In this document: in pieces, positions 31,662-44,564 of the stretch
Layout of the letters: the number at the start of each line of letters is the position of its first letter
Numbering within the stretch: position 1 is the stretch's first letter
Source: Rivularia sp. PCC 7116
GTDB lineage: Bacteria > Cyanobacteriota > Cyanobacteriia > Cyanobacteriales > Nostocaceae
Reading direction: 5' to 3'
Assembly: GCF_000316665.1 (NCBI RefSeq)
Contig: NC_019678.1
Coordinates: 6,791,001 to 6,855,000 of the forward strand
Length of the DNA: 64,000 nucleotides
The notes under the pieces: model-generated
The model's database searches: none
What the model saw: only the letters and a program-made list of their open reading frames with translations
Told to the model about the DNA's origin: nothing
Made by a program: the position numbers and the translations under genes

Positions 31662-33476
31662 ATGAGTCGAAATATATTGAATCCTTCCAAATATATCAAT
31701 CGCAAACCTAGCTCTAAGGTTTATACGCTGCTTTATTCAGTCTCATTTTTAGTTTTGTGGATGGTGGCATTTAGCGGTTCGGCTACCGCGCAGGTTGAGT
31801 CTCCGCAGGAAGACAGTATTCAGGATTTAGAGAATAGTTTTATTGAACAAATGAAAACCCCTGGAGGAACTCCTGAGAAAACACCTCCTGCGAATACAAG
31901 CGAGCCACTCTCGGCGAGAGTTACTTTACCGGTACTAACAGCACAGGATATATCTCAACTTCAACCAGACTTAGTTGCTAATTCTGATAGCTGTAATGCC
32001 CAGAGCTATTGTCAACAAGTAAAACCAGTTAGTGAGACTAAAGCTTCGGAACTCACTTTTAATCAACTACTCAATCCTTTACCCCAAGAAGAATCAGCGG
32101 ACAATAGCGAAGTACAGGAATTTGCGGCTCCCGAAGTTGCCAATGCAGTTAATGCCCGAACTTACATTGCTCCTTTACCTCCACTCCCAGGAACTCAGAG
32201 GCAACCACAACTAAATAATAGTGTTGAATCTCAACCGACTTTTAACCAATTACTTTATTCATCCCCAAACCAAACTTCAGCTGAGGTAAAGCCAACATTA
32301 AGCAATAACCCATTACTAAGTTCACCCGAATTTGCATCCACGGTTAATAAAAAATCTCAACCAGTCTTTAATCAAGCTGCCAACAAGCAACTACCAGAAT
32401 TACCATCACCTACAACTCAAAGGAATTCAGTCGCTCAGCAAATCGAGCCAAAGCCAATTCCTCAACAGCCTACTGCTGTTATCCGCAAGTCTCCTGTAGG
32501 AGAGCCATCTTTAACCCTCCAAGGTGTCTATGTAACTCAGGGTGATGATACCTCAGCAAGGGCAAGAGTAACAGGAATTTATCCCTTGACTCCTCAAGCT
32601 GTATTCGGTGCCACTTTAGATATGACTAGTGAAGGTAGTACCTTTGACGATTCCCGTAATGAAGGCTTGAATATCAACGAACTGTATTTCGCAACTTCTT
32701 TGGCGGGATTGCCTAACTTACGCTTTGTTATCGGGCAAATGGATCTAACTTCATATTTTGACCGAAATAGCTTCGCGAAAGATGGAGCAAGCCAGTTTTT
32801 TAATCCGGTTTTTCAAACAAATCCAGCATTGTCTTCTACAGGTATTGCTTCAAGCCCTGGTATGTTAGTTAATTGGAATGTCACCGATAAGGTGGCAGCC
32901 AAAGCTGCAATATTCTCTTCTTCCCAGGCACTTAGTGATTTTAGTTTGGATGGATTTGCAGGTGAAATTGGCATCCGTCACGGTAATGCGATTATTCGCG
33001 GCACTTATGCCACAGCTAGGGATGCAGGCAATCGGGATTCATTCGGCGAAAGCTTTGGAATTGCCAGAGGAAATAATCAATTTGGACCTTTAGAAGAGGA
33101 TAGAGAAGAATCATATGGAATAAACGCTGAAGTATTTATTCCAGAGATGAAATTAGGCTTATTTGGACGCTACGGACGCTACGAGAACCGAGATTTAGGA
33201 GAAGGTGCCCAAACTTATTCATTAGGATTAAGTTTCTTGGATTTGCTTACGCCAGATGACAGGTTGGGTTTAGCTTACGGACGCGCTCTTTCTAACGACA
33301 GTCTCCGCACGGGAAAACAGCCAGATGTAGTAGAACTTTTTTATGACTTTAAATTCCTTCCCAATCTCCGCGTAGGCTTATCCTTCCAAGGAAGAGACAG
33401 TTTCGACGAATCCGTTTTGGGTATAAGGGTGAAATCTGAATTTGATATTACTCCAAATAGGAGAAAATCTCGATGA
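31662..33476 (+). CDS. Outer-membrane beta-barrel protein, probable exopolysaccharide export porin
   Basis: The 604-residue precursor has a signal peptide (about residues 18-43; ends GSATAQ), a long Pro/Gln/Ser-rich periplasmic linker (about 45-285) and a C-terminal barrel domain (about 288-604) with alternating amphipathic strands (LTLQGVYVTQGDD, RVTGIYPLTPQAVFGATLDM, MKLGLFGRYGRYENRDL, LRVGLSFQGRDSF). The barrel has an OprB/carbohydrate-porin flavour. The linker repeats a short motif three times: LTFNQLLNPLPQEE, PTFNQLLYSSPNQ and PVFNQAANKQ, and has two cysteines ten residues apart (SCNAQSYCQQ). The stop overlaps the start of the TPR gene by 4 bp (ATGA), so the two are co-translated. Position and pairing suggest it supplies the barrel that BcsC carries itself in proteobacteria. 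The assignment is inferred. Confidence 0.82.
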   Translation: MSRNILNPSKYINRKPSSKVYTLLYSVSFLVLWMVAFSGSATAQVESPQEDSIQDLENSFIEQMKTPGGTPEKTPPANTSEPLSARVTLPVLTAQDISQLQPDLVANSDSCNAQSYCQQVKPVSETKASELTFNQLLNPLPQEESADNSEVQEFAAPEVANAVNARTYIAPLPPLPGTQRQPQLNNSVESQPTFNQLLYSSPNQTSAEVKPTLSNNPLLSSPEFASTVNKKSQPVFNQAANKQLPELPSPTTQRNSVAQQIEPKPIPQQPTAVIRKSPVGEPSLTLQGVYVTQGDDTSARARVTGIYPLTPQAVFGATLDMTSEGSTFDDSRNEGLNINELYFATSLAGLPNLRFVIGQMDLTSYFDRNSFAKDGASQFFNPVFQTNPALSSTGIASSPGMLVNWNVTDKVAAKAAIFSSSQALSDFSLDGFAGEIGIRHGNAIIRGTYATARDAGNRDSFGESFGIARGNNQFGPLEEDREESYGINAEVFIPEMKLGLFGRYGRYENRDLGEGAQTYSLGLSFLDLLTPDDRLGLAYGRALSNDSLRTGKQPDVVELFYDFKFLPNLRVGLSFQGRDSFDESVLGIRVKSEFDITPNRRKSR

Positions 33477-35869
33477 GTAAAGAACTAGAAATCTTAAATA
33501 AAATCACAAATAATTTGTATCCGGTGCAGAACAAGAACGCGAAAAACAAAAATACCAAACAAATTAACCAGTGGTTGATTGTTCCTTTTTACTGCTTGCT
33601 GACAACTTCTTTGGTAGCGGTACCCATCTTTACTAATAATGAACCCGTTCAAGCACAAAAATCTTCGTCAAGCTTGGTAAAACAAGGAAACAGACTTTTG
33701 AAGAAAGGATGGGTAGATGATGCAATCCAAGTATTTCGTCGAGCAGTCAAACGCAATCCACGTTCTTTACAGGCAAATTTAGGTTTGGCGATCGCCTATA
33801 AGCGTGCTGGAAATATTGATGCTGCCTGGGATTCTTACCAGCGTGTACTGTCTATCGATCCTAATAACCAATTAGCTCTTAAAACTATTGGTTTGTTTGG
33901 AACCTATCGTCCCCAATGGCAAGCTGGAGGTATAAAGGCTCTCAATACTTTATTAAATCTGAGTCCGAATGATTTTCAATCTCGGAGTCTAAGAGCTTTA
34001 CTTTATTACTATCAAGGCAGAATCAACGATTCAGTGGCAGATTACCAGATTTTGCTGAGCAACAACCCCACGCCAGAGATTATTCTCGGGGCTGCGGAAA
34101 CTTACACCTATGCTCAAAATTATCCCGAAGCACTAGAACTGTTTCAACGCTACCTTTCAACTGGCAGAAATCTTACTGCCAATGCAGCCATTGCCTACGG
34201 TAGAGCTTTGCAAAAAACTGGCAATCCCACACAAGCCATAGAGGTACTCGAAAATCAATTACGTAGTTCTAATACTTCTGATTCTTTAGCGCTTACAGCT
34301 CGGGCTGAATTATCCCAAGCTTATCTTGCTAACAATCAACAAGCTCAGGCTTTAGCTGTATTACAACCTCTGCGCGGTAGACAAGATGCGGTTTTACTAT
34401 TAGCTGGTGCCTTAAACGAAATACGCAAGCGCACAAACGATTCCGCTTTAGCAGCAGAAGTAGCTGGTTTATACCAACAAGTATTAGCGGATAATCCCAA
34501 TCCTTCACCTTTGTTACTGCTGCAAGTTGCCGATGTATTTTCTGGTTTACCGCAAGGAGAGAAAATAGCTCTACAGCTTTACAAGCAGGCTGCGGTAAAA
34601 TTACCAAACGACAAAAGTTTGGTGTTGCGCCAATTGGCTTTAGAGAACAAGCTGGGTGTAATTAATCAAAATACTTTCGGGCGTAGATTGACTCAGGCAT
34701 TACAAAACCCACCACAAGATGCAGTCGAATTACAAAAATTTGCTAGTGCTTTAGTACAAATTAATACTCGCAATCCGGAATATATTGCTGGATACCGAAG
34801 TATATTGCGAACAGGAGTAGATGCTCCTTTCCTAAATTTCCGGATTGCTCAAATGTATTTGCAGCAAAAAGATACAATTGCTTCCAGAAAAGCTTTAGCG
34901 GCTTATACAGCCACTCCTGAAGGAACAAATAATTTAGCTGCTCAGTTATTAGCAGCAGAAATTGAGTTACAGGAAGGAAATCTAGAAGCTAGTGCCAGAC
35001 GCTACCAAGCTGTACTTAACACCAATCCCGATAATGATGAGATTACCAACGGTGCTTTACGAGCATTAGCGGGGCTGCGTTCGCAACAAAAGCGTTTTGA
35101 TGAAGCTTTAAGTTATTACAATCAACTATTAGCTCGTCAACCGCAAAATCCTACATATCAGTTGGGACAAATTAGCATTGGCTATCAAGCTAATAAAATT
35201 AACCAACAGCAAGCAACTACAGTACTAAATAACTGGTTAGCAACTCAAAAAGCGACTTCAACACCCCCGGAATTATATAGCTTGGTGGGACAACTGCCAG
35301 CTTCGGCACGATGGGAACCTCTGTACAAATACCTTTTGCAATTGGAACCTAACAACTTACAAATCCAAGAGCGCTGGTTGCAAGTTGTGGCTCAAAGTAA
35401 CCCAGCCAAAGCACAAGCATTAGTGAAACAGTTTGCAGCAGCTAACCCAAGTAATTCGACTGAAGTCGAAGGACAGTTATCTAAAGCAATAGGGGATCTG
35501 AATTTAGCAGGAGTCGCCTACGAGAAGGTTTTGAGAAATCAGCCAGATAATATGGGTGCTCTTGCGGCCTTGGGAGGAATCCGTTTTGAACAACGTCGCT
35601 ACGAAGCAGCAGAGAAAATTTACTCCCAGATATTGAGGCAAAAGCCCCAAAATCGGGAAGCTAGGATGGCGATCGCCGATCTAAATGCCATTTTAGATAA
35701 ACCTTTAGCTGCTCTAAATCAGATGGAGAAATTACAAATTCAGCAAATGTCTGAGGGCGTAACAGATCGAAAATTAGAAGAGAAAAAGCAGAAACTCCAA
35801 GAAGATTTTCTTCTAAGACGCGGTTTTCAACCTTTTTGGGAAGATCCAAATCGCAGAATTCGTAATTAG
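33473..35869 (+). CDS. TPR protein, BcsC-like periplasmic scaffold for cellulose export
   Basis: The 798-residue protein has an N-terminal hydrophobic segment (about residues 34-52, WLIVPFYCLLTTSLVAVPIF) that anchors or exports it, then tetratricopeptide repeats over nearly the whole length (from LVKQGNRLLKKGWVDDAIQV to GALAALGGIRFEQRRYEAAE). It ends LLRRGFQPFWEDPNRRIRN with no room for a beta-barrel. In BcsC of proteobacteria the TPR region (about 700 residues) spans the periplasm and is fused to a C-terminal barrel; here the barrel is probably the product of the overlapping upstream gene. The genes downstream are bcsZ, bcsB and bcsA, so a cellulose export role is well supported by context. 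Overlap with the previous gene is ATGA. Confidence 0.87.
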   Translation: MSKELEILNKITNNLYPVQNKNAKNKNTKQINQWLIVPFYCLLTTSLVAVPIFTNNEPVQAQKSSSSLVKQGNRLLKKGWVDDAIQVFRRAVKRNPRSLQANLGLAIAYKRAGNIDAAWDSYQRVLSIDPNNQLALKTIGLFGTYRPQWQAGGIKALNTLLNLSPNDFQSRSLRALLYYYQGRINDSVADYQILLSNNPTPEIILGAAETYTYAQNYPEALELFQRYLSTGRNLTANAAIAYGRALQKTGNPTQAIEVLENQLRSSNTSDSLALTARAELSQAYLANNQQAQALAVLQPLRGRQDAVLLLAGALNEIRKRTNDSALAAEVAGLYQQVLADNPNPSPLLLLQVADVFSGLPQGEKIALQLYKQAAVKLPNDKSLVLRQLALENKLGVINQNTFGRRLTQALQNPPQDAVELQKFASALVQINTRNPEYIAGYRSILRTGVDAPFLNFRIAQMYLQQKDTIASRKALAAYTATPEGTNNLAAQLLAAEIELQEGNLEASARRYQAVLNTNPDNDEITNGALRALAGLRSQQKRFDEALSYYNQLLARQPQNPTYQLGQISIGYQANKINQQQATTVLNNWLATQKATSTPPELYSLVGQLPASARWEPLYKYLLQLEPNNLQIQERWLQVVAQSNPAKAQALVKQFAAANPSNSTEVEGQLSKAIGDLNLAGVAYEKVLRNQPDNMGALAALGGIRFEQRRYEAAEKIYSQILRQKPQNREARMAIADLNAILDKPLAALNQMEKLQIQQMSEGVTDRKLEEKKQKLQEDFLLRRGFQPFWEDPNRRIRN

Positions 35870-36014
35870 TAATTGTCTTTAGTAATTGTCAATGAAATGT
35901 AGCAATCGAGAGTTAATTTTTGGCAATATCCAAGGAATAATCAGATTTAGTATTCAATCAAAAATATTTAGTTTTCGCAACTTCCGCTAATACCTCATCA
36001 ATCCAACTGTTTTT

Positions 36015-37271
36015 ATGATGCGATATTTGCCATTAATAGCGGCGATAGTTAGCCAAATCGGCTTGTACTCTTGCAACTCTGGTTCTTCAGCAGTCAACTT
36101 TCCCAGCCAGAACCAGCAAACTCCGATGCCTTCATTTACTCCATTGTCAACTGACGATAATTACGACGTATTTCTTGCAGCCTTACCAAAAGAAACTCAA
36201 AATCGGGAATTATTAGCAAAAAGTTGGAGCAGCTATCGCCGGTTATTTATACAGAGCGATGGACGAGTAATTGATTTTCAAGCTAAAGATAGATCTACCA
36301 GCGAAGGTCAAGCTTATGCCATGCTCAGAGCAGTTTTAATCGATGATGCCACAACTTTTGCCAAAACTTTAAACTGGGCAGAGAATAATCTGCAACGGCA
36401 ACAGAATGATAGTCTGTGGGCTTGGAAATGGGGAAGAAGGAAAGATGGTAGTTGGGGCACTATCGACAGTAACTTTGCTAGCGATGCAGATATTGATGCG
36501 ATAACAGCCTTGATTTTTGCTTATAGAAAATGGCAAAATCCTCAATATCTAGAATTAGCTCGGATAAAATTACAGGACTTGTGGAAACTGTCTACTTTTA
36601 CTGATAGTAGCGAGAAACGCTATTTACTACCAGGTCCTAGCGATGCGTTTGTTCCCAATTCATCTACTATTTATCTTAATCCTTCCTACCTGGCTCCCTA
36701 TGCTTTTCGGATTTTTGCTCAAGTCGATCCAGAACGTGATTGGTTGAGCTTAGTAGATAGTAGTTATCAGGTGCTGGAGAAATCATTAGGGCTTTCTGGT
36801 GTGGGCTTGCCTAGCGACTGGGTAGCATTAAATCTAGAAACAGAAGAATTTTTCGCCCTCCCCGCACAAAGCAATATTCAAACTGTATACAGTTTTGATG
36901 CTTACCGCATTTGGTGGCGAATCGCTCTTGATGCTACATGGTTTAATTCATCCCAAGCAAAAAGCTATCTCCAAAAATCTACCCAACATCTTCAAAAAGA
37001 ATGGCGGCAAAAATCTTACTTACTTGCAAGCATTGATTTAAAAGGAAAGCCATTAGTAGATTACGAAGCAACGTCACAATACGCAATGTTTCATGTGGCT
37101 ATGAGGCTTTTAAAACCTGGTATAGCTCAAGAAATATTAGTAAAAAAAATATTACCTAAGTATCAAAAAGGAACTTGGGGAGACCGTTCGGGTTACTACA
37201 CCCAAAACTTGGTTTGGTTGAGCTTATTCAATCCTTCAGATGTACCCCAAAAATTAATTCAGAAGGAATAA
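36015..37271 (+). CDS. bcsZ: Glycoside hydrolase family 8 endoglucanase (BcsZ)
   Basis: The 418-residue precursor starts with a lipobox-like signal (SQIGLYSC, Cys20), so it may be a periplasmic lipoprotein, unlike the soluble BcsZ of Escherichia coli. The catalytic domain (about residues 60-410) is GH8: TSEGQAYAMLRAV holds the acid Glu, FASDADIDAITAL holds the conserved Asp pair, and WAWKWGRRKDGSWGTIDSN gives the substrate-cleft aromatic residues. GH8 endo-beta-1,4-glucanases are required for normal cellulose output in many bcs systems, probably by trimming or releasing misfolded chains. The gene lies 145 bp after the TPR gene and 81 bp before bcsB, all on the plus strand. Confidence 0.94.
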   Translation: MMRYLPLIAAIVSQIGLYSCNSGSSAVNFPSQNQQTPMPSFTPLSTDDNYDVFLAALPKETQNRELLAKSWSSYRRLFIQSDGRVIDFQAKDRSTSEGQAYAMLRAVLIDDATTFAKTLNWAENNLQRQQNDSLWAWKWGRRKDGSWGTIDSNFASDADIDAITALIFAYRKWQNPQYLELARIKLQDLWKLSTFTDSSEKRYLLPGPSDAFVPNSSTIYLNPSYLAPYAFRIFAQVDPERDWLSLVDSSYQVLEKSLGLSGVGLPSDWVALNLETEEFFALPAQSNIQTVYSFDAYRIWWRIALDATWFNSSQAKSYLQKSTQHLQKEWRQKSYLLASIDLKGKPLVDYEATSQYAMFHVAMRLLKPGIAQEILVKKILPKYQKGTWGDRSGYYTQNLVWLSLFNPSDVPQKLIQKE

Positions 37272-37352
37272 GAATATTTCATAAGTAGAACAGAACTACG
37301 CCAGTATTTGTACTTACACATATCAGTAAACTAATAATTACACTATCACCCA

Positions 37353-39692
37353 ATGAAGCGACTACTTTATCTTTCCCAAGCTAGTACTCAAATATTTATC
37401 ATTTTTTGTTCGCTTTTGATGTCCCCTTATTCTTCGTTAGACGCTCAAGCCGTCGCACAAGAAAGCTTTATAGCTCAAGCAGATACTTCAGATGTAGACG
37501 AAGATACAGATGCTACTTCTGAGACTGCGACTTCCGGGAAGACGATAACTCATAACTTAGAATTTAATCGCGCTCCGATTGTAGGTAATCGGATGCGCCT
37601 GCGAGGAATTTATTCTGAAGGTCGTTTGGGCTTTACTCGTCCCCGTGGTTGGAATATAGGAAATGTAAAAGCTTCGATTCGCTTTCAACATTCACCCGCA
37701 CTTTACGCTAACCGTTCTAACTTGACCGTTTTGGTTAACGATACAGCTGTCGGTAGCGTACCTCTTAACCGTAAAAATTCACAAATTGGCGAACTACTGG
37801 TAAATATTCCGCCAAAATTACTTCAAGATTATAACGAACTAAAAATAGTTGCTCAACAAAATAATTCGGAAATTTGTACGAATCCCAACGATCCCAATCT
37901 TTGGACGGAGATTCTGCCTGATTCCAAATTAGTTTTTAATTTTCAACGAAAGTCAGTTGCAGAAAATTTCAGCCGTTATCCTTATCCCATTTTTGACAAG
38001 CTGGGTTTAGAAGCTAGTAAAATCAATTATCTACAGCCAACTAACGTCGATCCAACATGGTTAACCGCAGCATCAAGACTGCAAGCTTCTTTGGGTAGAA
38101 AGGCTGATTTCCGTTCTTTAGATGCTGATTTAGTAACCGATATTACAAAGGTTAAGTCCAACGAAAAAGTAGTAATTATCGGTACTCCCCAAGAACAACC
38201 AGCTTTAGCGGAAATAGATTTACCAATTACAGTCGAAGGAAATAAAATCCTCAATAAAGAACAAACCGTGGTACCGGATGACCGGGGAGTTCTGATAATG
38301 ACTACCACCGAAAGCGGCTCTCCCGTATTAATTGCTACTGGTAACGGCAAAGAGGGAGTGGAGAAAGCTATTAAGTTTTTGGTACAGTCGGATACCAGCA
38401 AAATGGGTAGCGGTCAAGTTGTCGTTGTTGATAAAGTTCCAGAATTACCAACTCCTGGAGAACGCCAATGGCCTCGTTATTTACCCGAGAAAAACTCTTT
38501 TCAGTTGAGCGAGATTACCGCTGAAAACGAAGAGAAATTTAAAGATGTCACGGTGCGAGGAGCGGGAGCGCCAGCAGTAGAAATTGATTTTCGAGCCTTG
38601 CCAGACGACCGTTTTTTACGCGGTAGTTCTATGAATTTAGTCTACAGCTACGGTCCTCAACTCAACCCCAGAACTTCTGCTGTTGAAGTATTGCTAGATG
38701 GAAACTTCATTGGTGGCGAACGTTTATCTTCAGAATCCGGAGAGACTCGTAAAAATCTCAAAGTTGATTTACCTCCTAAATTAATTAAACCCAATTCCAA
38801 AATTGAAGTATTCTTCCGCATGAATGCGAGAGAACCTTTTAATAACGAAAGCTGTATTTATGCCCCCGACCAACAATTAACGGGTACGCTGCATAACGAA
38901 ACTAGCTTTGACCTCAAGCGCGAAACCTCTGCGACATTACCAAATCTAGAGTTGCTGCAATTTGGATTTCCTTTTGCATCTCCCCAAGATTTATCCCAAA
39001 CAACAATCGTTGTTCCTAAAAATCCTTCTAAAACGAATGTATTAACTTTGTTGGAGTTTAGCGAACGTTTAGGTCGTCTTTCTCAAGCTCCTTCGGTAAA
39101 ACTCGATGTTTATACCCCCGATACATTGTCTAATGATGAGTCAGCCAAAAATAATCATATCGTTGCAATTGGCACCCAAAATAATTTTCCCATCTCAGAA
39201 GCTCTCGAAAAGAGTCAAGGATTAAATTTGAGCCAGTCATTCTTCCGCTTATTTGGCAACGAACAAGACAAAGAGCAGGTAAAGCTGCAAATTCCTCAAG
39301 ATTCCCAAGGCATGATTAAGCAAATTATTTCTCCTTGGAATAACGATCGCGTAGTCTTGGCTTTGACTGCTCAAACTGAATCAGGCTTGGATAGAGTCAG
39401 ACAAGTTTTAGATCGCGATGCTTGGTTCTTCCAGTTAAAACAAGACACCGTATTAATTAGCAGCGATGAAAAAGAGCCAAATGCTTATGATGACAATGCA
39501 TTTGAATTGAGCTTTTTCAACAATGCTCCTAAGACTCGTCGGCTAGACAACAGTAATGCACTAAGCAAGACTTCTCAAATGTTTCAAGAAAATTGGCTGT
39601 TCATACCCGTGGGTATTGTCGGTTTAGCCTTGATACTTTACGGCATTGTTCAGCTATATCTGAAGCGCTTAAATGTCAAGGATAAAACGTAG
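37353..39692 (+). CDS. bcsB: Cellulose synthase regulatory subunit BcsB
   Basis: The 779-residue precursor has a signal peptide (about residues 8-35; cleavage near AQAVAQ), a large periplasmic part and one C-terminal transmembrane helix (about 750-770, WLFIPVGIVGLALILYGIVQ), the topology of BcsB. BcsB is the periplasmic partner that the catalytic subunit BcsA needs to polymerise glucan and that guides the strand through the periplasm. Family features include the opening carbohydrate-binding segment (GIYSEGRLGFTRPRGW, LYANRSNLTVLVNDTAVGSV) and a second similar module (MNLVYSYGPQLNPRTSAVEV, NEPFN-type FNNESCIYAPDQQL). Two flavodoxin-like parts alternate with them. The next gene is bcsA, 413 bp on. 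Confidence 0.93.
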   Translation: MKRLLYLSQASTQIFIIFCSLLMSPYSSLDAQAVAQESFIAQADTSDVDEDTDATSETATSGKTITHNLEFNRAPIVGNRMRLRGIYSEGRLGFTRPRGWNIGNVKASIRFQHSPALYANRSNLTVLVNDTAVGSVPLNRKNSQIGELLVNIPPKLLQDYNELKIVAQQNNSEICTNPNDPNLWTEILPDSKLVFNFQRKSVAENFSRYPYPIFDKLGLEASKINYLQPTNVDPTWLTAASRLQASLGRKADFRSLDADLVTDITKVKSNEKVVIIGTPQEQPALAEIDLPITVEGNKILNKEQTVVPDDRGVLIMTTTESGSPVLIATGNGKEGVEKAIKFLVQSDTSKMGSGQVVVVDKVPELPTPGERQWPRYLPEKNSFQLSEITAENEEKFKDVTVRGAGAPAVEIDFRALPDDRFLRGSSMNLVYSYGPQLNPRTSAVEVLLDGNFIGGERLSSESGETRKNLKVDLPPKLIKPNSKIEVFFRMNAREPFNNESCIYAPDQQLTGTLHNETSFDLKRETSATLPNLELLQFGFPFASPQDLSQTTIVVPKNPSKTNVLTLLEFSERLGRLSQAPSVKLDVYTPDTLSNDESAKNNHIVAIGTQNNFPISEALEKSQGLNLSQSFFRLFGNEQDKEQVKLQIPQDSQGMIKQIISPWNNDRVVLALTAQTESGLDRVRQVLDRDAWFFQLKQDTVLISSDEKEPNAYDDNAFELSFFNNAPKTRRLDNSNALSKTSQMFQENWLFIPVGIVGLALILYGIVQLYLKRLNVKDKT

Positions 39693-39757
39693 TATTTTCG
39701 TCAGGCTGTCTGCCCTTGACATTTATCTTGCTCGTTAGCGAATAACACGGAGCATCC

Positions 39758-39780
39758 ACTCGGGGTTGCAAACCCCGAGT
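39758..39780. promoter_or_regulatory. Perfect 10-bp hairpin between bcsB and bcsA
   Basis: ACTCGGGGTT and AACCCCGAGT form a perfect 10-bp stem with a GCA loop, 65 bp after the bcsB stop. There is no U-tract. In a 413-bp gap between co-directional subunit genes it may act as an attenuator, an mRNA-processing or an mRNA-stabilising structure. The rest of the gap is AT-rich and probably holds a bcsA promoter. Confidence 0.6.
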
Positions 39781-40105
39781 TAATAGCTCAAATCCTATAA
39801 ATAGGACTGAAATCTAAACCATCAAAACTAATAAAAAGAAGTCTAGTACTTTATTTGCTGAATTTTGGCGCACTCTAATCTTCGTTTCAGTATTGAAGAT
39901 ACTTTACCGCAGACAAATATTTGGTAGAGATACAGCAATAAATCTCTATCAACCAGTTTCTTCTCCTTTCTTATATCTTTTCTATTCAATTATTAAATAG
40001 AAAAAGAATTTGCACTTGCTTGTGCAATAGCTATTATTTTTGCCTTTGTTTCATCTTCTGGGTGAAATATACACAATTACATAAAGTCAAAATACTAAAT
40101 TAAAG

Positions 40106-42718
40106 ATGTCCTATTCATCAAACACCGAGCCTAGAAAAAAACGTAACTTATTTAATCCAGGTGTGTGGTTAACTGACCTGACACCAAGATTTTTTGACCG
40201 CTCTTTAGATAAATTAGGTCTAAAAAGCTTCAAATGGTTAACAGTTTTAATACTATTGATTTCAGCACCTTTAATTATTTCGCCCGTCGAATTGTGGCAG
40301 CAAGGGGCGATCGCCTTATTTCTAATTATTATCGGTCAACTAGTTGTAAGAGCAGAAAAAAACGAACCATCTAAAGAAATTACCCACTATTACCATTTGT
40401 TCATGGTGTGGCTAAGTTTGGTAACTACTATGCGTTACCTCTTCTACCGCACTTCTTATACTTTGAATTTTGATACCTGGGTTAACAGTATTGCCTGTGT
40501 TGTTTTATTAACGGCTGAACTTTACGCGATATTGACCCTAGTACTGGCATATTTCCAAACTTTACAATTCAAAGAACGCAAGCCGGTAAATTTAACTCAG
40601 ATACCAGTAGACGAATGGTTCAACGTTGATATTTATATTCCTACCTACAACGAGGATGTTAGCATTGTTCGTAAAACTGCATTAGCAGCTAAGAAATGTG
40701 AATATGCTCGCGGCAAGAAAAAAGTTTATATTCTTGATGATGGTCGTCCTGAAAGATACAAAGCAAGTGACCCCCGCCGAGAAAAATTTCGTGCTAGACG
40801 GGAAGAATTGAAACAAATGTGTGCCGAACTCGGCTGCATTCATCTAACTCGGGATAATAACAACCATGCCAAAGCAGGTAATATCAATCATGCTTTTGGT
40901 AAGACAGATGGCGACTTGGTATTAATTTTAGACTGCGACCATATTCCATCGCGTCAATTTCTGGTGCATACAGTCGGCTTTTTCTATGACCCCAAAGTTT
41001 CTTTTGTTCAGACTCCTCACTGGTTTTACAATCCCGATCCCTTCGAGCGCAATTTGCTGACAAAAGGTAAAATCCCCGTCAATAACGAACTGTTTTATAA
41101 AGTAATCCAAAAAGGTAATGACTTTTGGAATGCTTCATTTTTCTGTGGTTCTGCGGCAGTAATTCGTAAATCTCATGCCTTAGAAATTGGCGGAATTGCG
41201 GTAGAAACAGTAACAGAAGATTGTCATACAGCACTAAGACTGCATTCGCGGGGCTATAAATCTGTCTACTACGACAAAATTATGGTTGCGGGATTAGCTC
41301 CCGAAACTTATCCTGCTTATTTAGGTCAGCAAATACGCTGGGCTAGAGGCATGGCTCAGATTCTGCGTCTTGAAAATCCGCTGTTTAACCCAAAACTGAA
41401 ATTAACAATTCCCCAAAGAATTTGTTACTTTAGCGCTACTTCCCACTTTTTGTATGGTTTCCCTCGCATAGTATACGCAATCATTCCCACACTGTTTTTA
41501 CTCTTCGGTGTCAACCCAGTTGAAGGTTTGGGTTTAGAAACTCTTGCTTATGCAATCCCCCATATTACTCTTTCTCTAAGTACTAACTACATCATTCACA
41601 AACGCGCTCGCTTTAGTTTCTGGAATGAGGTGTTTGAATTTGTCATGTCTTTTCAGGTGGGATGGGTGACATTACTGGCGTTAATCAATCCCAAACTAGG
41701 TTCTTTTAACGTTACCGATAAAGGTGTAAACGTTACTGAAAGAAGCTTTGATTGGAAATCAATGCTAGGTTTGATAATTGTTACGGTATTTGTAGTCCTA
41801 GCTTTAATTGCCGTTCCTTTCTGGGCATTGCTTCGTCCAGAAGATTGGGAAGCTGTGTTGGTAAACACCCTATGGTGTGTGTTAAACCTCACCTTACTAG
41901 TAAGTGCTTTACTCGTTGCTTACGAGCAACCGCAAATCCGTAGAGAACACCGCTTAGAACGTCGTCTTCCCGTTGAACTTTCGGGCAATAAGCAAACTAT
42001 TATCGGCGAAACAATAAATATTTCTGAAAGCGGTGCTTTGATAGCTTTCAATTCTCAGCTAAATTTACCGGATGAGATAGACATCGAAATAAAAGGAGAT
42101 TTTTCCAGAAAAGTATCTCTTACCGCAAGAATTATGAGATTATCTCCTATCAGCAAAATAAGAAGCCATCTTGCAGTTGATTTTATAAACCTGACTCAAT
42201 CACAAAAAGATGACCTCAGCTTGATTTTGTATTGCGATGTTAAAGAATGGTATTCTCAAAAACGTAAAGTTACAGACCGACCGGTTGCTTCTCTTGGATT
42301 CATCTCTACTAGCTTGTTGCGCTCCTTGCAAGATATTCAACTAACCAAACACAAACAGATACGCAAACAAGTACATGCATTTGGTGAATTATATTTAGAC
42401 GGCGATCGCTTCACCGGAGTCACTACTGAATTAGGAGTAACGGGATTACGGTTGGAATTAGATAGTACCCAAGCAAAATCTTCTAGTAAAGTACTTGGTC
42501 AAAATGATTTTTACAATATACAAGCTGCTCAACCAGCAGTAGGTTTACTTTTAAGTAAAGACAAGAAAATCGACATTTCACAATCTGGTCGATTTATTGC
42601 CGAAGTTGATACTTTAGAAAAAGATGGAACCGGCAAAATCACCATCAACCTAAGATTCCCCGATAGGTTTAAAGAGCAACAGTTACCAAAAATCAAACAG
42701 CTTTTGGAACAACTTTAA
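40106..42718 (+). CDS. bcsA: Cellulose synthase catalytic subunit BcsA (UDP-forming) with PilZ domain
   Basis: BcsA is the inner-membrane GT2 synthase that joins glucose from UDP-glucose into beta-1,4-glucan and moves it across the membrane. The 870 residues include N-terminal helices (about 45-160), the GT domain with VYILDDGRPE (D211, D212), LDCDHIPSRQF (DxD 276-278), FFCGS (345-349), TED (370-372) and QQIRW (408-412), further helices (about 450-605), and a PilZ domain with RLERR (616-620) and NISESG (638-643). These residues predict activation by cyclic di-GMP. All catalytic motifs are intact. A C-terminal extension (about 745-870) contains a second, degenerate PilZ-like domain with the same 27-residue motif spacing. 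Confidence 0.96.
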   Translation: MSYSSNTEPRKKRNLFNPGVWLTDLTPRFFDRSLDKLGLKSFKWLTVLILLISAPLIISPVELWQQGAIALFLIIIGQLVVRAEKNEPSKEITHYYHLFMVWLSLVTTMRYLFYRTSYTLNFDTWVNSIACVVLLTAELYAILTLVLAYFQTLQFKERKPVNLTQIPVDEWFNVDIYIPTYNEDVSIVRKTALAAKKCEYARGKKKVYILDDGRPERYKASDPRREKFRARREELKQMCAELGCIHLTRDNNNHAKAGNINHAFGKTDGDLVLILDCDHIPSRQFLVHTVGFFYDPKVSFVQTPHWFYNPDPFERNLLTKGKIPVNNELFYKVIQKGNDFWNASFFCGSAAVIRKSHALEIGGIAVETVTEDCHTALRLHSRGYKSVYYDKIMVAGLAPETYPAYLGQQIRWARGMAQILRLENPLFNPKLKLTIPQRICYFSATSHFLYGFPRIVYAIIPTLFLLFGVNPVEGLGLETLAYAIPHITLSLSTNYIIHKRARFSFWNEVFEFVMSFQVGWVTLLALINPKLGSFNVTDKGVNVTERSFDWKSMLGLIIVTVFVVLALIAVPFWALLRPEDWEAVLVNTLWCVLNLTLLVSALLVAYEQPQIRREHRLERRLPVELSGNKQTIIGETINISESGALIAFNSQLNLPDEIDIEIKGDFSRKVSLTARIMRLSPISKIRSHLAVDFINLTQSQKDDLSLILYCDVKEWYSQKRKVTDRPVASLGFISTSLLRSLQDIQLTKHKQIRKQVHAFGELYLDGDRFTGVTTELGVTGLRLELDSTQAKSSSKVLGQNDFYNIQAAQPAVGLLLSKDKKIDISQSGRFIAEVDTLEKDGTGKITINLRFPDRFKEQQLPKIKQLLEQL

Positions 42719-42827: not shown

Positions 42828-44564
42828 TCACCCTTCTTCACTATCTGCACTAGAAACCATCACCGGTTGCTGGTACAGCGGAACTGTAAAGGTAACTGTG
42901 GAGCCAAGCCCTTCACCTAAGCTGTAAAAATGAACTTCGCCACCCATCGCTTCGACTAATTTTTGAGATATGGTTAATCCCAGCCCAGTACCACCATATT
43001 GACGAGTACGGGAACCATCGACTTGGGAAAATAATTGAAACAATTTATCTTGCTGGTCTAAAGAAACACCTATACCTGTATCTACTACCCGGACTTTTAC
43101 CATACCGGGAAACTCTTGCTCTTTAAACATAACTTTTTTACGAACTACATCAGCAGTAACGGTTATATGCCCTTCGTGGGTAAATTTTATGGCGTTACCG
43201 ACTAAATTTATCATTACTTGTTTGAGACGCAGGTAATCGCTGTAAACGAGAATTTCATCGTTTGTGTCGGGTAGCTGCATCCCAAAGCTGAGACTTTTAT
43301 GCTCTGCTTGCAACCGCATGAAGTTTTCGACATCGGTAAATAACTCATCAAGTTTTACCGGTCTCAGTTCCAACTCCATTTTGCCTGCTTCTATTTTGGC
43401 AAAGTCTAAAATATCGTTAATAACTTCCAATAAATGTAAAGATGATTTGTGAGCTTCTCCTAAAAACAGAGCTTTTTCTTCGTCATCATCAGCCATTCCA
43501 TCCAAAATCAGTTTCAAAAAGCCAATCATTCCATTTAAAGGCGTGCGGATTTCGTGAGAAACGTTAGCTAGAAATTCGCTTTTGAGACGGGAAGCATCTT
43601 CCGCTTGCTGCCGCGCCGATTCTAATTCTTTATACAAAGTCGCGTGGGCGATCGCCGTACCAATTTGATTAGCAGCTTCTTTAGTTAACTCAAGTTCCTT
43701 AGCTGATAAATGGGAGCATTCAGCACTTAAACTCAATGCGATTAAGCTATTGGGTTGTTCTTGATGGGAAGTTGCGACTATTAAAAGTTTCTCAGTGTTG
43801 AATAGTGAATTTTCTGTTGGCTCTACTATAACTGGCTTAAGAGTATTCAAAGCTTGAGTAAAGCCAACCTCAGAAGCTATATCTATTTCCGTGCCTAACA
43901 TTGGCTTAACGTTTGGCTGGCAAGATTCTGCTATAACACTTATTTTTGATTCGCCGTAATACGGACAAATTATACAAAATTCTGGTTTTAATGTTGCACT
44001 CAAGCTATCAACAGTTTGCTGCCAAATAATCTTTAAATCCAGGGTTCGCCGAATATTGGTCGTAATATTATTAATCAGCTTTTGGTATTGCTGCGAACGT
44101 AAATCATCACCTATTTTTTTAGATTTAGGCGTTACCTGGATTTGATTTTTGCTCGCCGCAACTTGCAGTAATCTCCCCATAACCAATACCGAGGTGGCAG
44201 CACTACCTAAAGTTGGCAGTATAGGAGTTATCAGCAATTCAAATTCTACAGTTCCTTGCGGAAGACTAAACCAACACTGACACTTTTGAGGAATTAAAGT
44301 TGTCAACACTTGCTCTAACCGTTCAAAATAACCCGCTTTATCAATCGGGGCAAAGCTTTCTTGATTTTGGTTATTGTCAATATGTTCTGACTCTAACCCT
44401 AAACGTTCGCTTTGCTGCCAGTAAAAATTAAGGTAACGTCCCGTTCCTTCCTGAACGTACACCAATTCAGATCCCAGACAAGCCAATGCATCAGTGCGAT
44501 CGATAACAGATTTTTTCTGGTCGGACAATAAATGCGGTGGTTCAGAATTCGCAGCAATACTCAT
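42828..44564 (-). CDS. GAF sensor histidine kinase
   Basis: The 578-residue soluble kinase has an N-terminal PAS-like region (about residues 22-135, LACLGSELVYVQEGTGRYLN), a GAF domain (about 165-312) and a kinase core. HisKA is FLANVSHEIRTPLNGMIGF with H337; the N box is VMINLVGNAIKFTHEG, and VVDTGIGV and GGTGLGLTISQKL follow. No Cys-His chromophore motif is seen in the GAF domain and there are no transmembrane segments, so the signal is cytoplasmic or protein-borne. No receiver or response regulator lies next to it. It converges with bcsA across simple repeats; a functional link to cellulose is not implied by the orientation. Confidence 0.9.
   Translation of the reverse strand: MSIAANSEPPHLLSDQKKSVIDRTDALACLGSELVYVQEGTGRYLNFYWQQSERLGLESEHIDNNQNQESFAPIDKAGYFERLEQVLTTLIPQKCQCWFSLPQGTVEFELLITPILPTLGSAATSVLVMGRLLQVAASKNQIQVTPKSKKIGDDLRSQQYQKLINNITTNIRRTLDLKIIWQQTVDSLSATLKPEFCIICPYYGESKISVIAESCQPNVKPMLGTEIDIASEVGFTQALNTLKPVIVEPTENSLFNTEKLLIVATSHQEQPNSLIALSLSAECSHLSAKELELTKEAANQIGTAIAHATLYKELESARQQAEDASRLKSEFLANVSHEIRTPLNGMIGFLKLILDGMADDDEEKALFLGEAHKSSLHLLEVINDILDFAKIEAGKMELELRPVKLDELFTDVENFMRLQAEHKSLSFGMQLPDTNDEILVYSDYLRLKQVMINLVGNAIKFTHEGHITVTADVVRKKVMFKEQEFPGMVKVRVVDTGIGVSLDQQDKLFQLFSQVDGSRTRQYGGTGLGLTISQKLVEAMGGEVHFYSLGEGLGSTVTFTVPLYQQPVMVSSADSEEG

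Follow-up and report, generated by a model that had tools for sequence, protein, structure and literature searches.

How do cyanobacteria that carry BcsB pass cellulose through the outer membrane? The question is raised by a cluster of cellulose genes in a stretch of 64,000 nucleotides from Rivularia sp. PCC 7116 (contig NC_019678.1, positions 6,791,001 to 6,855,000 of the forward strand; hereafter, the window). In BcsC, the cellulose exporter of proteobacteria, a 16-strand barrel and a solenoid of tetratricopeptide repeats (TPRs) belong to one chain. In the window, an OprB-type barrel and a TPR scaffold are encoded by two separate genes, as they are in the other loci examined. Many filamentous cyanobacteria carry this conserved cluster of seven genes, in which barrel and scaffold probably form a previously undescribed exit for cellulose, and the cluster offers a concrete and testable answer to the question. 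Judging from sequences and structural models, we consider it fairly probable that the cluster is a complete synthase-dependent cellulose secretion unit, and that the barrel, a recruited porin, and the TPR protein are a two-piece exit doing the job of BcsC. According to a phylum-wide survey from 2015, BcsC_C was present in none of the cyanobacteria analysed, in which only TPRs were found, and BcsB in very few (PMC4594306). Alphaproteobacteria without BcsC have been reported as well, and a novel export mechanism was suggested there (PMC7112194). In titles and abstract openings, mainly of open-access papers, we found no description of a split barrel/TPR arrangement.

The original prediction had named five consecutive genes, for the barrel, the TPR scaffold, a GH8 endoglucanase, BcsB and BcsA, and all five open reading frames (ORFs) were found on the plus strand with the positions and lengths expected (Table 1). 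Its extent of the cluster had to be revised, since two further conserved genes lie upstream in both copies that the Rivularia genome carries, and the set was therefore counted as seven: CC, a divergent lipoprotein-like gene, the OprB-type barrel, the TPR solenoid, a lipoprotein-like GH8, BcsB and BcsA. The predicted 4-base overlap between barrel stop and TPR start was read directly in the sequence. BcsA carries glycosyltransferase and PilZ matches in Pfam and scored 708.9 bits against the NCBIfam model TIGR03030 (CelA), the cut-off of which is 699.1.

Two sets of barrels were used for comparison: A1, 18 of the 20 barrels from a phylum sample, gathered without loop patterns (L017 and L019 were left out), and A2, 60 barrels gathered with such patterns. 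The barrel protein consists of a putative export signal (residues ~1-44, by eye), a low-complexity arm rich in proline and glutamine (~45-276) and a 16-strand barrel (277-604); across the phylum genomes the arm ranges from 175 to about 900 residues if the first start codon is taken. The OprB flavour ascribed to the barrel was confirmed, as its match spans residues 293-572 and the barrel domain scored 43.9 bits against PF04966, over the gathering threshold of 22.9. PF04966 was matched at E 0.01 by 52 of 60 barrel relatives, and OprB was the sole Pfam family matched by more than one barrel. An AlphaFold2 model made from 60 sequences has 16 strands (mean predicted local distance difference test score, pLDDT, 87.1; predicted template modelling score, pTM, 0.82) and, in this model, a long loop between strands 5 and 6. 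Foldseek related the model to porins; among the 50 matches listed, the best query template modelling score (TM-score) was that of OprB 4gey (0.69), and BcsC was absent. When PDB sequences were searched, phmmer found no match to the barrel at E up to 10, and the one match to the A2 profile, at 0.75, is due to chance. The further claim that the barrel is not of BcsC type also held. BCSC_C (PF05420) had no match in the Rivularia genome at E 0.001, and hhalign comparison of the 60 barrels with a single E. coli BcsC sequence gave no useful match. On these two results we rejected the idea of a diverged BCSC_C barrel; as only one BcsC sequence served as the hhalign target, the barrel may still be distant kin of BcsC.

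Table 1. Features of the cellulose cluster, in positions of the window
Feature	Position	Strand	Basis
CC, coiled-coil-like membrane protein, 253 aa	29571..30332	+	membrane segments and coiled coil by eye
Divergent lipoprotein-like gene, 260 aa	30665..31447	-	in exactly the 16/386 genomes with barrel
Barrel protein, 604 aa	31662..33476	+	Pfam OprB 2.2e-10; AlphaFold2 model
FNQLL motif copy 1, arm residues 133-137	32058..32072	+	
FNQLL motif copy 2, arm residues 194-198, preceded by PT	32241..32255	+	
Barrel domain proper, residues 277-604	32490..33473	+	50-83% identity to 17 A1 relatives
Beta5-beta6 link (L3 position), residues 362-396	32745..32849	+	AlphaFold2 model; column conservation
TPR scaffold, 798 aa	33473..35869	+	TPR families in Pfam; model; export signal by eye
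TPR-protein C-terminal tail, residues 780-790	35810..35842	+	invariant columns in 52 sequences
GH8 endoglucanase (BcsZ counterpart), 418 aa, lipoprotein-like signal	36015..37271	+	Glyco_hydro_8 1.8e-41
BcsB, 779 aa	37353..39692	+	PF03170 1.4e-126
BcsA cellulose synthase with PilZ, 870 aa	40106..42718	+	TIGR03030 5.8e-213

The TPR protein was modelled as a continuous solenoid over residues 62-782, with about 20 TPRs (mean pLDDT 86.5, pTM 0.64) and, as predicted, without a barrel anywhere in its 798 residues. The 50 Foldseek matches listed for it were TPR-type or similar solenoids of low TM-score. Behind the last repeat there is a tail in which eight columns (L, R, G, F, Q, P, W, E; residues 780, 783-787, 789 and 790) are invariant among 52 sequences, only ORFs of 700-900 aa having been chosen for this alignment. 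The protein might have been a truncated BcsC that had lost its barrel, but this reading was rejected, since the protein recurs at similar length and with the same invariant tail in the 52 aligned sequences.

The distribution of these genes was determined in a phylum sample of 386 genomes drawn from a larger group, with thresholds of E up to 1e-8 for the barrel, 1e-40 for the TPR protein and 1e-5 for the lipoprotein, and of E below 1e-80 for BcsB; at most three barrel, two TPR and six lipoprotein candidates were scored per genome, so that extra copies may have been missed. Barrel, TPR protein and lipoprotein were found in the identical 16 genomes. BcsB was found in the same 16 and in G343, and five further genomes had weak and partial BcsB matches. 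All 20 barrels of the sample adjoin a TPR gene, upstream of it and on the same strand, with gaps of no more than about 350 bases, and for 17 of them a BcsB gene lies no more than about 7 kb away on that contig; of the other three, those of G005 and G118 reach the contig end and that of G360:C427 (L026) does not. BCSC_C was matched in 8 of the 386 genomes, over the cut-off in 2, and neither of these two is among the 16 that carry the system. CC was searched in 36 chosen genomes, namely these 16 and 20 of the same family without the system; it was found in 16/16 and 0/20, respectively, mostly but not always beside the cluster.

The GTDB species genomes were then scanned with the barrel domain alone as query and with two peptide patterns taken from the beta5-beta6 loop and the residues immediately preceding it; counts on 80 loci refer to the best 80 of 205 barrel relatives, and these 80 were all cyanobacterial. 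The TPR gene is downstream of the barrel in 77 of the 80 loci, with an overlap of 4 bases in 51 and of 1 base in 7; it is downstream but distant in L068 (1553 bases) and L109 (980 bases). Of the three loci without it, L102 and L105 reach the contig end and L046 is rearranged: a BcsB-matching ORF (L046:10972-13611) starts there at the usual TPR start, and the TPR and GH8 matches are missing, which is either a deletion or an assembly fault in this metagenome-assembled genome. BcsB is present in 68 of the 80 loci; among those that lack it, L047 and L109 are intact and the other 10 are truncated at the locus end. The exact order of seven genes was found in 39 loci, and L033, L036 and L084 also have it, with an added histidine-kinase match or a split ORF. 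The predicted gene order thus recurs in other cyanobacterial genomes, and barrels lying mostly outside bcs loci, away from the TPR gene, were not what either sample contained.

A second copy of the cluster (L003) is present in the Rivularia genome itself (8.7 Mb, 3 contigs), at 0.92-0.94 Mb, again with a 4-base overlap and with the lipoprotein-like gene and CC upstream. Since there is a second copy in the same genome and the order recurs in other cyanobacteria, the arrangement is not due to chance. The L003 copy differs in having, between TPR and GH8 (L003:9330-10287), an ORF that we take to be Uma2-like and a short TPR-like ORF (by eye). In four other genomes, too, the cluster is duplicated in whole or in part (L033/L040, L035/L042, L036/L084 and L037/L047). 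We divided the copies into two types by their barrel identities, the window, L033, L035, L036 and L037 on one side and L040, L042, L084 and L047 on the other; with ORFs open at a contig end excluded (as in the lipoprotein-signal and catalytic-motif counts below), mean identity was higher within types than between them for all seven genes (e.g., for the TPR protein, 0.70 and 0.80 within vs. 0.54 between), which fits inheritance as a unit. Pairwise identities were correlated between genes (0.86-0.97), a range that has no outside control and reflects joint inheritance only. That this variant of synthase-dependent cellulose secretion is a genetic unit is strongly supported.

Known OprB proteins are uptake porins. 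The barrel might accordingly be an ordinary OprB-type porin that retakes cello-oligosaccharides freed by GH8, while the polymer leaves via another channel. The family membership of the window barrel and of 52/60 relatives, the modelled porin fold with its long beta5-beta6 loop, and OprB 4gey as the best match among the 50 listed would all suit such a role, which we nevertheless consider unlikely. No sugar transporter was recognised by Pfam among the cluster proteins scanned, and no other BcsC-type barrel was found in the Rivularia genome. Moreover, the barrel gene overlaps or adjoins the TPR gene, and a downstream TPR gene is missing from just three of 80 loci, two of them ending at a contig end and one rearranged. 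The barrels also stand apart from the other OprB proteins of their own genome. Of its 19 PF04966 matches, those of the two bcs barrels have low scores, 41 and 30 bits. Like the cyanobacterial SLH-OprB porins, the bcs barrels are of the OprB family; unlike them, they mostly lack a terminal Phe and form a separate clade, and the two that were scanned lack the SLH domain. In these Pfam scans SLH was not found in the window or L003 barrel, whereas four further OprB proteins from the genome were scanned and all four had it. A terminal Phe is present in 15/15 of the other OprB proteins of the genome, whereas Phe, Trp or Tyr is terminal in 0/60 A2 barrels (L102 is cut by the contig), which mostly end in a short basic or polar tail; in A1, aromatic ends were seen in 2 of 18 barrels (L031, Trp; L006, Phe). 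In a tree with those 15 proteins, the bcs barrels formed one clade (100/100) on a long branch of 1.94 changes per column. The tree took 7 of the 60 A2 barrels together with the two Rivularia bcs barrels, L129 and L131, which carried no group label, and for this reason the label count reads 3 changes and not 1; L125, which has an in-frame stop, and L130, the other piece of the L128 ORF, were excluded. Since the tree was midpoint-rooted, the long-branch clade gives no direction of descent from SLH-OprB porins. An export role of the barrel is likely, and the distinct outer-membrane exit for cellulose in cyanobacteria that the original prediction put forward appears supported.

No other long stretch of the barrel is as conserved as the link between strands 5 and 6, where 16-strand porins have their constriction loop L3; its mean column conservation was 0.93 vs. 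0.76 elsewhere in A2. Because A2 had been gathered with patterns from this very stretch, the way the set was chosen favoured a high value for the loop, and hence the count was repeated on A1, where the link had 0.89 vs. 0.71 elsewhere and the top 35-residue window began at residue 82. In A1, the part of the loop outside the search patterns (residues 99-120) reached 0.83, which exceeds the mean of the rest (0.71), although other windows scored higher.

How might two separate chains be held together? A motif, F[NDE]Q[LFM][LF], mostly in the form PTFNQLLN, occurs in the arms, with 94 copies in 48 of 80 arms and at least two copies in 34. The sample consisted of the window and 79 loci, L059 having been dropped because the anchoring pattern was unmatched. 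In 200 shuffles, 0.145 copies were expected and the maximum was 3, a comparison that overstates independence, since the arm sequences are related, and for which the pattern had been picked after reading the arms. The motif is present in 48/53 arms from one group (window, L033-L084 and L112) and in 0/27 from the other (L085-L111). It may be a candidate docking site or a by-product of repeat expansion in the first group. On the other chain, the invariant C-terminal tail of the TPR protein is a candidate docking end.

A mechanism can be proposed on this basis. By homology, BcsA, gated by cyclic di-GMP via PilZ, would polymerise UDP-glucose and hand the chain to BcsB as in proteobacteria. The free-standing TPR solenoid would span the periplasm, and the separate 16-strand barrel of the OprB superfamily would cross the outer membrane, the two together replacing the single BcsC. 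Where BcsC has a covalent link, the two pieces are probably joined by the long proline-rich arm of the barrel and by the short tail that follows its final strand, with the FNQLL motifs, often repeated, as candidate docking sites in most of the heterocystous-type relatives (window, L033-L084 and L112). Membrane-tethered GH8 would trim stray glucan, and the lipoprotein and CC may be dedicated assembly or gating factors.

Several observations weigh against an exit of this kind. The fold matches of the barrel were diffusion porins, of OmpF types and OprB 4gey among the matches listed, a glucan chain might not fit through the constriction, and linkage to the cluster fits an oligosaccharide-uptake porin too. 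The TPR region of E. coli BcsC matched the TPR profile over 64 residues only, as any TPR might. Elsewhere in G338, one of the system genomes, there is a partial match to BCSC_C that does not reach the cut-off. In L047 (Calothrix parasitica NIES-267), L109 (Limnofasciculus) and L026, no GH8, BcsB or BcsA match follows the barrel-TPR pair for several kb downstream, so that the pair can sit apart from the synthase. Conversely, a 21st TPR gene of the phylum sample lies in an arrangement TPR-BcsB-BcsA (L007:7010-14407), with no barrel, lipoprotein or GH8 match in the stretch examined. CC matches lie away from the cluster in G174, G011, G215 and G360 and for one of the G305 copies, and a lipoprotein copy lies away from the barrel in G011 and G360. 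Lastly, in the comparison of the two copy types, which were author-assigned from barrel identities, the lowest identity within a type falls just short of the highest between types for the barrel (0.77 vs. 0.78) and for BcsB (0.63 vs. 0.64), and for CC the two are equal (0.47). Upstream of the L007 genes there are transposase-like ORFs (by eye). L006, in the same genome, is a full cluster with CC apart, and L135 is a lone lipoprotein gene at yet another site.

Compared with known systems, the cluster resembles BcsC in that a TPR solenoid and a 16-strand barrel are encoded at a locus with bcsA, bcsB and bcsZ, and the job of the two proteins is probably that of BcsC; it differs in having two genes, the barrel first, a barrel of the OprB superfamily, a long proline-rich arm and two extra co-inherited proteins. 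The TPR scaffold and outer-membrane barrel are separate proteins also in the alginate system AlgK-AlgE, where AlgK is an outer-membrane lipoprotein (PMC9734138). In the cluster, by contrast, 0/81 TPR ORFs are lipoprotein-like, and the lipoprotein-like signal belongs to another small protein; the polymer and its synthase are not those of AlgK-AlgE, and the barrel family is OprB. For cyanobacteria, a 2025 review gives XcsA-XcsB(HlyD)-TolC as the model of cellulose export, awaiting experimental confirmation (PMC12430437). That system shares with the cluster a cyanobacterial cellulose synthase with PilZ, but there an HlyD-like protein replaces BcsB (PMC12430437), which in the cluster is present.

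Two further readings give the barrel no part in cellulose export. The cluster might make another beta-glucan, or cellulose that is kept in the periplasm. The same review describes for Synechococcus sp. PCC 7002 a layer of cellulose that lies between the plasma membrane and the outer membrane, but also sheaths that contain cellulose in strains of Scytonema and Nostoc, a finding not tied to this cluster (PMC12430437), and since BcsA is over the curated CelA cut-off and is accompanied by BcsB and GH8, we consider this very unlikely. Least probable of all is a TPR protein that pairs with a distant TolC-type channel, as in XcsAB-TolC, beside a barrel that is a structural or unrelated outer-membrane protein: the cyanobacterial model and the TolC-family genes of the Rivularia genome (at 3.94 Mb a clear OEP gene with two domains, at 4.19 Mb a marginal match) would allow it, but both genes are far from the cluster, Pfam scans of eight window proteins from the cluster and its flanks showed none that was TolC-like and, in the cluster itself, none that was HlyD-like, and the TPR gene adjoins the barrel gene almost everywhere examined.

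To return to the two-piece exit, we can offer a tentative history, which is possible but somewhat doubtful. The cellulose exit of cyanobacteria would have evolved independently of BcsC, when a peptidoglycan-bound uptake porin lost its SLH anchor and gained a periplasmic tail and a long, proline-rich arm in which TPR-docking motifs are repeated. It would have become a dedicated exporter of polymer, with the conserved L3 as its gate and a free TPR solenoid as its base, and the machine would be made complete by a new lipoprotein and a coiled-coil protein of the inner membrane. If the proposed exit is correct, a sugar porin has been turned into a polymer exporter, and the cluster provides a natural two-part BcsC in which pore and scaffold are separately tractable. 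The lipoprotein and CC genes would be new candidate parts of the cellulose machine.

Further counts concern the remaining members of the cluster. The four catalytic motif patterns (D, D, TED and Q-x-x-RW) were found in 63/63 complete BcsA ORFs of the 80 loci and the two PilZ patterns in 62/63, and the SEGQ motif of GH8 was found in 65/66 GH8 ORFs. Whereas BcsZ of E. coli is soluble in the periplasm, the cyanobacterial GH8 appears membrane-tethered, by its lipoprotein-like signal. Such signals, as scored by a crude script, were present in 62/66 GH8 and 66/68 lipoprotein ORFs, 0/81 TPR, 0/69 BcsB and 1/53 CC ORFs; the script also scored 10/78 barrel ORFs and therefore gives false positives. Neither the lipoprotein-like protein of the window nor any of six relatives scanned had a Pfam family over the cut-off.

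Some observations concern the surroundings of the cluster and related genes. Beside BcsA in the window there is a histidine-kinase-like gene (by eye; 42828-44564, minus strand), which may be a local regulator; matches to it also lie beside the cluster in L013, L033, L034, L035 and L036. Promoter-like sites (27 vs. 29.9 expected) and terminator-like sites (12 vs. 10.5 expected) were counted as well. The Rivularia genome has, outside both clusters, a third cellulose-synthase-like glycosyltransferase (L140:8016-10286, 756 aa; 472 bits to TIGR03030, below the cut-off), and the ORFs that flank it show no obvious HlyD partner by eye in their first 40 residues. In one genome without the system, small ORFs (L009:7829-8378) are ~62% identical to parts of BcsB and GH8 and appear to be remnants of the cluster. 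Two BcsB-like genes stand in tandem in a distant member of the phylum (L008:8695-13436), with no match to the window BcsA within 19.5 kb. The weak partial BcsB matches in L010, L011, L012 and genome G241 lie in open frames of 664-681 aa and possibly represent a separate BcsB-like family.

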